Part shown: positions 14,410-23,027 of the stretch, in pieces
Layout of the letters: every line of letters begins with the position of its first letter
Position numbering within the stretch: the stretch's first letter is position 1
Source: Hymenobacter sp. PAMC 26628
Lineage (GTDB): Bacteria; Bacteroidota; Bacteroidia; Cytophagales; Hymenobacteraceae
Assembly: GCF_001562275.1 (NCBI RefSeq)
Contig: NZ_CP014304.1
Location: 2,170,001-2,234,000, forward strand
DNA: 64,000 nt
Reading direction: 5' to 3'
Notes under the pieces: model-generated
What the model was told of the DNA's origin: nothing
The model's input: only the letters and a program-made list of their open reading frames with translations
The model's database searches: none
Translations under genes and position numbers: made by a program

Positions 14410-14439
14410 GGGCCACCCGGCGTGCCTTCTCCGCATCTA
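14410..14439 (+). promoter_or_regulatory. ECF-type promoter-like site without an obvious gene
   Basis: GGGCCACC, 15 bases, then GCATCTA. The spacing is identical to the site ahead of the ECF sigma gene (19355) and to the one at 20618. It points rightward into the 3' end of a minus-strand gene. It lies in the 114-bp gap between the IS1 remnant and that gene, which holds nothing else. Confidence 0.4.
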
Positions 14440-19139: not shown

Positions 19140-19354
19140 GGGCGCGGGCGAAAAAAATAAGGACCAGGCGGGGCCCCGGGCGGCCAGAACGAGGACGCTC
19201 GGGGCCCCGCCGGCGAAGGCAGGGGTTGATTACATTGGGTAAGTTATAAATTAAATTCATATATTTTAATATTTAGCCGACTTTGGGTCGGACGTCCGTT
19301 GGTTTTCGGGCCCTACCCAGCGAACCTGGGGGTCGAAAAATTATTTTTTTCGCT

Positions 19355-19384
19355 GGGCAACCCCCGGCGTCTTTTCCGCATCTA
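19355..19384 (+). promoter_or_regulatory. ECF-type promoter ahead of the sigma gene
   Basis: GGGCAACC (19355-19362), 15 bases, GCATCTA (19378-19384), preceded by an A/T tract (about 19335-19350). The elements resemble ECF sigma -35 (AAC core) and -10 boxes. The GTG start of the sigma gene lies 46 bases downstream, consistent with autoregulation. Confidence 0.6.
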
Positions 19385-19429
19385 CCGCGCCCACCCCCCC
19401 TTGCCGCTGCCCTTCTCTACCTTTCTGCC

Positions 19430-19972
19430 GTGACCGAAGCTGACCTGATTGCCGCCTGCCAGCGGGGCGAGCCCCGCGCCCAGCGCCTGCTCTACGAGCG
19501 CCTGGCGGGCCTCATGCTGACGGTGTGCCGCCGCTACCTGCGCCGCCGCGAAGACGCCGAAGAAGCCCTGCTGCTGGGCTTTGCCCAAATGTTTAGGGCC
19601 CTGCCCACTTACCGCGGCGAGGGCAGCTTCGAGGGCTGGGTGCGCCGCATCATGGTGAACCGGGCCCTGATGGAGCTGCGCCGCCGCGAGCCGCTCACGC
19701 TCTCGTTCGACGACTTCGCGCAGCCCGAAAACCTGGCCAGCACCCCCGCCACGGCCGACACCCAACTCCAGGCCGACGACCTGCTGGCCCTGCTGGCCGA
19801 GCTGCCCGCCGGCTACCGCACCGTGTTCAACCTCTACGCCCTGGAGGGCTACGGCCACCAGGAAATCGCCGAGCTCCTGGGCATTTCGGAGGGCACCAGC
19901 AAGTCGCAGCTCAGCAAGGCCCGGGCCCTGTTGCAGCGCCGCGTGGGCCAGGCCGCCGCCGTGGCCTACTAA
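19430..19972 (+). CDS. ECF-type RNA polymerase sigma factor
   Basis: 180 residues from GTG at 19430. Region 2 is LIAACQRGEPRAQRLLYERL through RYLRRREDAEEALLLGFAQM and TYRGEGSFEGWVRRIMVNRA. Region 4 is LLALLAELPAGYRTVFNLYA, LEGYGHQEIAELLGISEG and TSKSQLSKARALLQRR (the -35 binding helix-turn-helix). This is the Bacteroidota ECF pattern. The frame is open further upstream, but that part overlaps the promoter motif, so GTG is chosen. The next two genes, an apparent anti-sigma protein and an outer-membrane protein, follow on the same strand. Confidence 0.92.
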   Translation: MTEADLIAACQRGEPRAQRLLYERLAGLMLTVCRRYLRRREDAEEALLLGFAQMFRALPTYRGEGSFEGWVRRIMVNRALMELRRREPLTLSFDDFAQPENLASTPATADTQLQADDLLALLAELPAGYRTVFNLYALEGYGHQEIAELLGISEGTSKSQLSKARALLQRRVGQAAAVAY

Positions 19973-19995
19973 TCCGCTTTTTAACATTCCGCTAT

Positions 19996-21078
19996 ATGCT
20001 TCCCGAAAATATTGACGATTTATTCCGCGACGGCCTCGACGGGCACGCCACCCCGCCCGACCCGGCGCTGTGGGCCCGCCTGGCCGACGCGGCCGATGCC
20101 GCCGGGGCCCCACCCGCCGCCGATGACGCTCGCCTCGACGAGCTTTTCCGCGCCGGGTTGGCCGCCCACGCCACCCCGCCCGGCCGCCACCTCTGGGAGC
20201 GGCTGGAGGACGAGCACCTGCGCCTACCGCACCGGCGGCGCGCGACCGCCTGGTGGCCCCAGGCCCTGGCCGCAGTGGTGGCCCTGCTGCTGGTAGCCGG
20301 CGGCGCCGGGCTGCTGTGGCGCTACGCCGCGGGCCTGCGCCTCGGTACCGCATTGGTAGCCCGCTCCGGGGCCCCCGGCACGCGCCCGGCCTCGGCCACC
20401 CGCCCGGCAGCCGTGCCCCTGCGCCCCACCGAAAGCGGCAAGCAAAACGCCGTAGCCACCGCTACTGGGGGCCCCAAAGATGCCCTGGCTACTGCGGCTG
20501 CACCGGCGACCACCGCGCCACGGGTTGCGCGGGCGGCCACGGGCCAACCGGGCCCCGGCCGGGTGCAGGCCACGAAAACGGCTGCGTTGGCCGCTGCTAA
20601 AAATAATTTTTCACGCCGGGCAACCCGGTCCGCGGTGCTGGCATCTAGCGGTTCATCGGCCACCAAACGGGCGGCGAATTCCACTTCAGTAGCGGCCCAA
20701 CCGGGGCCGGCGCGGTCCGGGGCCCCGGACGCGCTTGCCCCGGCGCCGCGCGGCGCCAAGCTCCCGGACGCGGGGGCCCTGGCCGTGGCCCCCACCCCCG
20801 CAACTGCGCCGGCCAGCGCAGCAGCGGTGATTGAGGTTGAAGTGCACCGCGGCAGCGCCGCCCCGGCCCCCGTGGCGGCGGTGGCCTCGGCCGAAACCTT
20901 TTCTGATGACGACGACCGGCCCGTTGGCCGCCGCGTGTTGGGGGGCTTGCTCCGCCAAGCCCGCCACGTGGTGCGGGGCGAGCGGGTGAGCCTGGCCGAG
21001 GCCACCGGCCTGCCCGAAAACCTCACGCTCCAAGCCAACCTGGGCGGCCGCACCCTATCCCGCACCATTCGACTCTAA
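19996..21078 (+). CDS. single-span membrane protein, putative anti-sigma factor with duplicated N-terminal motif
   Basis: 360 residues. The cytoplasmic N-terminus has two copies of a ~25-residue motif, IDDLFRDGLDGHATPPDPAL and LDELFRAGLAAHATPPGRHL, each ending in a W-x-R-L/E helix. A membrane span follows (ALAAVVALLLVAGGAGLLW, about 92-112). A long periplasmic Ala/Thr/Pro-rich stretch leads to a C-terminal part with DDDDRPVGRRVLGGLLRQ. It starts 23 bp after the sigma gene, the standard place for a cognate anti-sigma factor. That role is inference; no ZAS zinc motif is seen. A promoter-like site lies inside the gene at 20618. Confidence 0.75.
   Translation: MLPENIDDLFRDGLDGHATPPDPALWARLADAADAAGAPPAADDARLDELFRAGLAAHATPPGRHLWERLEDEHLRLPHRRRATAWWPQALAAVVALLLVAGGAGLLWRYAAGLRLGTALVARSGAPGTRPASATRPAAVPLRPTESGKQNAVATATGGPKDALATAAAPATTAPRVARAATGQPGPGRVQATKTAALAAAKNNFSRRATRSAVLASSGSSATKRAANSTSVAAQPGPARSGAPDALAPAPRGAKLPDAGALAVAPTPATAPASAAAVIEVEVHRGSAAPAPVAAVASAETFSDDDDRPVGRRVLGGLLRQARHVVRGERVSLAEATGLPENLTLQANLGGRTLSRTIRL
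20618..20647 (+). promoter_or_regulatory. Internal ECF-type promoter-like site
   Basis: GGGCAACC, 15 bases, GCATCTA, preceded by AAAAATAATTTTT (about 20599-20611). It matches the site at 19355 in both boxes, spacing and A/T tract. It lies inside the putative anti-sigma gene, about 455 bp ahead of the outer-membrane protein gene. Confidence 0.45.
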
Positions 21079-21101: not shown

Positions 21102-22253
21102 ATGAAACGCTCCTTCTTCACCCTGCTCCTCTTCGCCGCTGCCTGCGCCGCCGCGCCTGCTACTGCCCGCGCCGCCCGGCTGCCCGGGGCCCCGGCCCCC
21201 GCCGACACCATTGTGGTGCGTCTGCCCAACCAGGCCACCCTCACGCTGCTGGTGCGCGACGCGGCCCAGTTGCGCGAGCTGCCCCAGTACCACCTCGACT
21301 CGCTCACGGTGCGCCTGGCCGGCTACATTGCCCAGGCCGAAGCGGCGGCCAAAACGGCCAAAACCGAGCAGGTGACGCTGGAGTTTTATCCCGACAAGGA
21401 CACCCCCGGCCAGCGCCTGCCCGAGCAGATCCGCATCACTACCCACAAGCAAAACCCCAACGCCAAGCGCGTGGACGTGGCCCTGAACAAGGCCTTCAAA
21501 ATCAAGGTCGATACCGACGCCGACGGTAACCGGAGCGTAAAAATCAACCCCACGCCCGGCGCTAACCGCGCCGAGCGCGAAGCCCACCGCGACTCCTCGC
21601 GCGCCAAGAACTACGAGCGCAACAACAACCACGACGCCAACTTTATACTCGACCTGGGCCTGAACGCGCTGGCCAACCAGCACCCCGGCGCCGGCCAGTC
21701 GGCTGTGGACCTGCGCCCCGGCGGCTCGCGCTACGTCAACTTGGGCTTTGACTATTCCCAGCGCCTGGGCGGCAAGCGCAGCCCGATGTATTTGGTACTG
21801 GGCCCCGAGTTTGCCTTCAACAACTACATGCTGAACGGCAACAACAAGTGGGTGAACCAGAACAACATCACCAGCGTGGTGAACGAAACCAACCCCACCC
21901 GCCAGTACGACAAAACCAAGCTGGCCACCGCCACCGTGAACCTGCCGCTCATGCTCCAGCTCAAGCTGCACGACGCCCACTACCGGCCCACGTTTGCCCT
22001 CGCCGCCGGGGGCTTCGTGGGCTACCGCCTCGGCTCCTGGACCAAGCTTAAGTACACCACCGACGGCACCACCTACAAGGACAAGGACCACAGCAGCTAC
22101 AACCTCGAAGACTTCCAGTACGGCCTGCAAGGCACCATCGGCTACGGCGACCTCACCCTGTTCGCCAAGTACAACCTGAACCCGCTCTTCAAAGCCGGCC
22201 AGGGCCCCGACACGCAAGTCGTCAGCTTCGGCCTGCGCCTGTTCGGGAATTAG
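21102..22253 (+). CDS. PorT-like outer-membrane beta-barrel protein
   Basis: 383 residues with a signal peptide (MKRSFFTLLLFAAACAAA...ARA). The first ~190 residues are a charged periplasmic region rich in Lys, Asp and Asn. After about residue 185 there are alternating strands, e.g. SRYVNLGFDYSQRLGGKRSP, MYLVLGPEFAFNNYML and FALAAGGFVGYRLGSWTKLK, ending in VSFGLRLFGN. This is an outer-membrane barrel of the PorT/OMP_b-brl type. It is 23 bp after the anti-sigma-like gene, so the sigma system probably controls it. I cannot name a ligand or function. Confidence 0.78.
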   Translation: MKRSFFTLLLFAAACAAAPATARAARLPGAPAPADTIVVRLPNQATLTLLVRDAAQLRELPQYHLDSLTVRLAGYIAQAEAAAKTAKTEQVTLEFYPDKDTPGQRLPEQIRITTHKQNPNAKRVDVALNKAFKIKVDTDADGNRSVKINPTPGANRAEREAHRDSSRAKNYERNNNHDANFILDLGLNALANQHPGAGQSAVDLRPGGSRYVNLGFDYSQRLGGKRSPMYLVLGPEFAFNNYMLNGNNKWVNQNNITSVVNETNPTRQYDKTKLATATVNLPLMLQLKLHDAHYRPTFALAAGGFVGYRLGSWTKLKYTTDGTTYKDKDHSSYNLEDFQYGLQGTIGYGDLTLFAKYNLNPLFKAGQGPDTQVVSFGLRLFGN

Positions 22254-22256
22254 TTT

Positions 22257-23027
22257 TTAGGAGAGGCCTTGCAGTCGTTCAACGATTGCAAGGCCTCCGC
22301 CTTGTTCATTCAACGTCAGATGAGCACCCCGCGCTTGCACAGCACCGAAGGAGATGATGTTTTTTGAGTCTTTTGGCAACGCCCATGCCTTCGCCTGGCG
22401 CATTGCAATGATTAATGCTTCTTTTGACTGTGCCCGCGGAACGATTACGTCTTTTACGTATTGGCACATCAGCTCTTTTGATTTGAGTTTGAATCCAGGT
22501 TTTTTAAAGCCTTGCGAATGATAAGGATACATTTCCAAGCAGGCAACGTGCCGGCTGATGCGCTGGAACGCCTGCTGCAAGGGAATATTAGTGCGTCTCG
22601 CAAGTTCTTCGGCGATAGCACGAAACTTTGACCTCCACCATTGCCCACCGGCTGTCCATGCAAATTGAGGATTCAAGAAGAAGAAAGGATATGAGTCCGC
22701 TGCATTTTGCTGCGCTAGGTTACGCTCGATAGCGGCGGCATACTCAGGCTCCTTTTCCAAAGCGTAATAATCTCCCGGACTAAATCCGGGATTCAGCATT
22801 AAAATAAAAATTGAAGCTTGAGACAAATTACCCACAAACGGCTGTGGCAGTAGATTCAAATGAAATTTAGTCGACTGGCTGCCAAAGTCGAGGGACTCAA
22901 TAAAATCCTTGTAATTACGGTGTTTGGCTATCCGCTCTTCGTCGGCATCCAGTGCTTCGTCACCGGCAAGGAGGCGTGGAAAATGAGAGGGAGAAAAATT
23001 CTGCCAAGCTTGGATGAGGGAGGCCAT
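22257..23027 (-). CDS. uncharacterised protein, lower-GC gene
   Basis: 256 residues. Distinct features are SIFILMLNPGFSPGDYYALE, YPFFFLNPQFAWTAGGQWWR, CLEMYPYHSQGFKKPG and a basic helix region DVIVPRAQSKEALIIAMRQA. The LNPG and MYPYHS motifs are reminiscent of phosphate- or nucleotide-binding loops, but I do not recognise a family. The gene has visibly lower G+C than its neighbours and fewer GCC/CTG codons, which suggests later acquisition. It is convergent with the barrel-protein gene with only three bases between stops. Confidence 0.7.
   Translation of the reverse strand: MASLIQAWQNFSPSHFPRLLAGDEALDADEERIAKHRNYKDFIESLDFGSQSTKFHLNLLPQPFVGNLSQASIFILMLNPGFSPGDYYALEKEPEYAAAIERNLAQQNAADSYPFFFLNPQFAWTAGGQWWRSKFRAIAEELARRTNIPLQQAFQRISRHVACLEMYPYHSQGFKKPGFKLKSKELMCQYVKDVIVPRAQSKEALIIAMRQAKAWALPKDSKNIISFGAVQARGAHLTLNEQGGGLAIVERLQGLS

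Follow-up and report, generated by a model that had tools for sequence, protein, structure and literature searches.

The window, that is, the whole 64,000-nucleotide stretch of Hymenobacter sp. PAMC 26628 DNA that we analyzed, contains an operon of three genes on the forward strand, which encode an ECF sigma factor, a putative membrane anti-sigma factor and an outer-membrane beta-barrel protein. Two predicted promoters with the same boxes accompany these genes, one upstream of the sigma gene and the other within the anti-sigma coding sequence (Table 1). The sigma factor has 180 amino acids, with Sigma70_r2 and Sigma70_r4_2 as its only Pfam domains, and matches the sigma70-ECF family TIGR02937. 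The second protein is the product of the next gene after sigma and has one transmembrane helix, as is typical of a membrane anti-sigma factor, with an N-terminus that is predicted to be cytoplasmic. It matched no Pfam family at E 0.1, and so neither the RseA domain nor FecR. The order of the sigma and anti-sigma genes is kept at 139 loci of the family and at 20 loci of other families, and 117 of 120 genomes of the genus contain the gene for the outer-membrane protein, the closest named relatives of which are those of H. nivis and H. caeli. The operon is not of the FecI/FecR/FecA type, since the anti-sigma factor lacks a FecR match and the third gene product is an OMP_b-brl_2 protein without a plug domain.

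Table 1 Predicted features of the sigma factor operon, in positions of the window
Feature	Position	Strand	Details and evidence
A/T tract of the outer promoter, UP-element-like	19336..19350	+	sequence; A/T peak common to promoters of the genus
Outer ECF promoter (predicted)	19355..19384	+	-35 GGGCAACC 19355-19362; -10 GCATCTA 19378-19384; predicted start ~19392/19393
ECF sigma factor gene	19430..19972	+	GTG start; Pfam Sigma70_r2 2.1e-13, Sigma70_r4_2 2.3e-18; NCBIfam TIGR02937 1.9e-26
Putative membrane anti-sigma factor gene, 360 residues	19996..21078	+	position, order-wide co-occurrence with sigma, AlphaFold2 model
A/T tract of the internal promoter	20599..20611	+	sequence; A/T peak common to promoters of the genus
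Internal ECF promoter (predicted), within the anti-sigma coding sequence	20618..20647	+	-35 GGGCAACC 20618-20625; -10 GCATCTA 20641-20647; predicted start ~20655
Outer-membrane beta-barrel protein gene	21102..22253	+	Pfam OMP_b-brl_2 9.3e-12; first complete gene downstream of the internal promoter

In the AlphaFold2 model of the anti-sigma factor (mean pLDDT 57), a helical N-terminus is followed by a hydrophobic helix of transmembrane length (aa 87-112), a disordered linker (aa 113-310) and a small C-terminal domain (aa 311-360). The N-terminal part carries a duplicated helical motif (aa 6-75); this motif, D.LFR..L..HATPP...LW.RL, is duplicated in the clade of the window (19996-20230) and present as a single copy in the other clades of the genus. 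Convergent with the operon lies a gene on the reverse strand (22257-23027) with a match to the anti-phage DNA glycosylase Brig1 (6.5e-7) that is below the cut-off.

The initial annotation had proposed that GGGCAACC-N15-GCATCTA occurs twice at the locus, each copy being preceded by an A/T tract, and we located both exact matches and both tracts, with the outer motif ending 45 nt ahead of the sigma gene. The boxes as first drawn matched exactly but extend a little beyond the conserved core, [A/G]GGCAAC(C)-N16/17-[C/T]ATCT[A/G], which is followed by CA ~7 nt downstream. In the 5.37-Mb genome, the full motif occurs five times; two of the copies are the operon sites and the remaining three lie at C2:1802162 (-), C2:3119760 (+) and C2:4401774 (-), and a reversed pattern, used as a control and allowed up to one mismatch, matched once. 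These genome counts and the reversed controls ruled out a chance recurrence of the motif, which is thus not randomly distributed. A copy with one mismatch, GGGCCACC-N15-GCATCTA, is also present in the window at 14410-14439 (+). Across the genus, the upstream and internal sets are alike in the A/T tract, both boxes, the spacing and the CA initiator ~7 bases past the -10 box. The A/T content peaks at positions -18 to -12 before the -35 box, reaching 90% at the upstream and 84% at the internal sites, and the average across the anti-sigma gene is 32%. Because the CA would be the likely transcription start, starts are predicted near 19392 and 20655, in agreement with the initial expectation of starts near 19390 and 20655.

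We then compared the two sites across genomes. The genus set comprised 99 operons of Hymenobacter, namely those readable over their full length, with that of the window among them, and all 99 carry GGCAAC-N17-YATCTR (up to one mismatch) both before the sigma gene and within the anti-sigma gene. The upstream core lies 69-83 nt ahead of the sigma start in 97 of these operons and has one mismatch in the other two. Among 40 loci from five other genera of Hymenobacteraceae, the upstream motif was found at every locus and the internal motif at 24. The operon is also kept at 20 loci that belong to other families of the order; the upstream sites there mostly have the form tGCAACC-N16-GCATCT, and three of the loci have an internal site, in each case within the anti-sigma gene. 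As judged from these loci, the upstream site is order-wide, and the internal site is typical of Hymenobacteraceae though absent from some lineages. Its absence from 16 of the 40 loci of other genera and 17 of the 20 of other families indicates that it is dispensable to such operons. Furthermore, each of 80 named loci (Hymenobacter, Pontibacter, Adhaeribacter and others) has one site before the sigma gene and one or none within the anti-sigma gene, with no further copies elsewhere in the stretch examined. A weight-matrix scan revealed no degenerate internal site in the lineages without a match, except at one locus (L053), which has the site in the form AGCAAC. On a quick tree of the sigma factors, the presence and absence of the internal site required 10 changes, a number that gives no direction of gain or loss; the internal site would either be of earlier origin, with frequent losses, or have been acquired repeatedly.

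The codons of the anti-sigma gene point to selection on the internal site at the level of DNA. When synonymous codons were shuffled within the anti-sigma genes (500 shuffles), the strict motif, which was observed in 120 of 139 genes, appeared in a mean of 0.48 and a maximum of 4; in the same analysis it was found neither on the reverse strand nor in the sigma gene. We also ranked 254 codon columns by excess conservation of the third base in a motif-blind, protein-only alignment of 99 anti-sigma genes, and the top four columns were all codons of the internal motif or of its predicted start. These are the GCA column in the -35 box (99 of 99, expected 11.6), the NCA column that precedes TCT (third base A in 99 of 99, expected 11, with the residue varying among Ala, Pro, Ser and Thr), the TCT column (99 of 99, expected 21) and the TCA column at the predicted start (72, expected 10). 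Since the expected counts ignore relatedness, the evidence is the ranking of the columns and not a z value. Two rare codons, GCA (10%) and TCT (10%), recur at the motif throughout. After thinning for similarity to 47 genomes, identity was 99-100% in the boxes, 54% in the spacer and 43-49% in the flanks. In the AlphaFold2 model, codons 209-219, which hold the predicted promoter, map to the centre of the low-confidence linker of ~200 residues, the part of the anti-sigma factor tolerant of sequence change. On this codon-level evidence, the internal copy is conserved as DNA and not as protein.

Sites elsewhere suggest which genes the motif may serve. GGCAACC-N16-CATCTA gave 28 matches in six related genomes, a count in which one G093 site on two overlapping contigs appears twice, versus 1 for the reversed control. 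The sites outside the operon precede genes for a TonB-plug outer-membrane protein, a GIN/DUF2807 protein, a type IX sorting-domain protein and an M16 peptidase. In more distant species, sites found with a looser 11-base pattern, chance hits included, precede genes for GIN proteins, a recurring exported protein, LolD-like ATPases and others; this loose core, GCAAC-N17-CATCTA, is too common to define a regulon, and its reversed control is nearly as frequent. The recurring exported protein (..ITEAIKLDGVLDEAVWQQA..) follows a site in six genomes (L348, L354, L360, L361, L364, L365) and, judged by eye, is probably an outer-membrane protein of the DUF5916 type. Taken together, the pattern of sites is in line with a small regulon under an envelope-stress factor.

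In seven genomes, we noted a candidate for a small or antisense RNA under sigma control; there, the motif lies just past the 3' end of cca (tRNA nucleotidyltransferase) and points inward (G000:C2:3119761-3119950, locus L151 from 1501; also L197, L198, L204, L205, L349 and L350). The next ~110 nt fold as two strong hairpins, followed in most genomes by a T-rich tail. Part of the conservation at this candidate is that of the cca coding sequence, and a search of Rfam returned no match to it.

Given the motif, spacing, A/T tract and initiator that the two sites have in common, their joint conservation throughout the genus and the selection on DNA, the initial proposal of a matching ECF promoter pair is supported, and both sites are very probably real ECF promoters. 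We consider it likely, with good confidence, that this is a positively autoregulated operon for a sigma factor, an anti-sigma factor and an outer-membrane protein, in which the promoter that the sigma factor itself recognizes is present twice and shifts the ratio of the products on activation; consistent with autoregulation, the matching conserved motif precedes the sigma factor's own gene. When the anti-sigma factor lets go of the sigma factor, both promoters would fire. The outer promoter (19355) would give a full transcript for all three proteins, and the internal promoter (20618) a shorter one that contains only the outer-membrane protein gene in full, behind a 5' leader of ~450 nt. The outer-membrane protein would thereby be boosted by two promoters and the anti-sigma factor by one, so that the ratio of the former to the latter would shift. 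The last ~140 anti-sigma codons would lie in the leader of the inner transcript, where their translation could be lowered or altered. We infer from the conserved sites that this sigma factor reads them, that both are active and that the ratio shifts.

Several other explanations of the two sites were weighed against this reading. The internal motif might be kept for the sake of its peptide, QAT......S in the periplasmic linker (a processing or attachment site, for example), with the match to the outer site being coincidental. Such a role would suit the single reading frame of the motif in 122 of 122 genes and the nearly invariant Ala-Thr and Ser of the linker, but the third base is fixed even where the residue varies, as in the NCA column, and the non-coding site upstream of sigma has identical DNA words, spacing, A/T tract and initiator. 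This explanation is therefore extremely unlikely, and the shuffling and the column ranking led us to reject peptide-level conservation as the cause of the motif. Likewise, the inner transcript might yield a truncated anti-sigma factor, the C-terminal periplasmic part, with a function of its own, since the inner start is followed by ~140 codons, those of the conserved C-terminal domain among them. However, only 57 of 122 genes have an in-frame ATG that follows the site and leaves 20 codons or more ahead of the stop (counting ATG starts alone), and we dropped this highly unlikely product for want of a conserved in-frame ATG.

Meanwhile, the motif might be read by a different sigma factor, so that the two sites would reflect a shared input rather than autoregulation. 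The genome has 23 sigma-70-region-2 genes, and ECF factors can overlap, as at the SM6 promoters of Flavobacterium psychrophilum (PMC9723704). Nevertheless, a related motif stands ahead of this very sigma gene across most of the order, and at the 22 other sigma-70-region-2 loci we found no core with a CATCT -10 box and a single loose variant (GTATCT), making another reader distinctly improbable. It is also conceivable that both promoters are real and the internal one acts chiefly to hold down the anti-sigma factor, either because a held or starting polymerase hinders those coming from the outer promoter or because the site titrates the sigma factor. A strong sigma-dependent start within a gene is expected to interfere, and the location inside the inhibitor gene is conserved; on the other hand, the site faces downstream and has an initiator to match, and the gene conserved in the next position encodes the outer-membrane protein. 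As the main role this is unlikely, whereas such interference with transcription of the anti-sigma gene is a realistic supplement to the autoregulated operon with two promoter copies. A wider scheme combines these elements: a promoter embedded in coding sequence and kept in much of the family would dictate the codons of the linker and part of its peptide and split the operon into more outer-membrane protein and, by interference, less anti-sigma factor, acting as a self-reinforcing switch, and the same sigma factor would drive a small RNA that runs antisense to cca at its 3' end. We regard this scheme as doubtful.

The rpoE-rseA-rseB-rseC operon of E. coli encodes an envelope-stress sigma factor and its membrane anti-sigma factor, is autoregulated, and has envelope genes and small RNAs among its targets. 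The Hymenobacter operon would work in a similar way, with small RNAs as a possible component only, but its anti-sigma factor has no Pfam match to RseA and its third gene encodes an outer-membrane barrel. Autoregulated ECF operons in general combine a two-domain sigma factor, a co-transcribed anti-sigma factor, AAC in the -35 box and positive autoregulation (PMC8103513). The AAC is present here, the conserved box upstream of sigma being GGCAAC within the family and tGCAAC at most loci of the order, whereas the -10 box, [C/T]ATCT[A/G] (CATCTA in the window), differs from the CGT typical of ECF promoters, a criterion of early ECF definitions since relaxed to domain content (PMC8103513). The Hymenobacter operon is further set apart from these general ECF operons (PMC8103513) by the predicted second matching promoter embedded in the anti-sigma gene. 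The SM6 promoters of F. psychrophilum, a member of the same phylum, are an ECF promoter class whose targets include one sigma/anti-sigma operon, but they have CGT in the -10 box and target type IX secretion genes, and a text search of that report found no internal promoter (PMC9723704).

By analogy, the nearest documented parallel that we found is sigH-rshA of Corynebacterium glutamicum, although it is opposite in sense. There too, a promoter for the operon's own ECF sigma factor lies within coding sequence, and the SigH-dependent rshA promoter inside sigH shifts the relative output of the operon genes (PMC3489674). In C. glutamicum, however, the promoter is inside the sigma gene and raises the anti-sigma factor, giving negative feedback, while in Hymenobacter the predicted promoter is inside the anti-sigma gene, which it would bypass. 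Also, the outer promoters of C. glutamicum are housekeeping ones, and the outer promoter of Hymenobacter has the same motif as the internal one. In the open-access literature, we found no direct precedent for a sigma-dependent promoter inside an anti-sigma gene, and the search of this literature returned no studies of sigma factors in Hymenobacter.

Operons of sigma and anti-sigma genes are usually thought to hold their products at a fixed ratio. The finding here goes beyond two matching boxes in one genome; it is a conserved pair of predicted promoters with codon-level evidence, and as such a clear case of a regulatory site selected inside a protein-coding gene over a long evolutionary span, one that synonymous changes can destroy while the protein is untouched. 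For Hymenobacteraceae, it yields a prediction of the promoter code, together with candidates for an envelope-stress regulon and a small RNA. If the proposed mechanism is true, this design would shift one product of the operon against the others upon activation.
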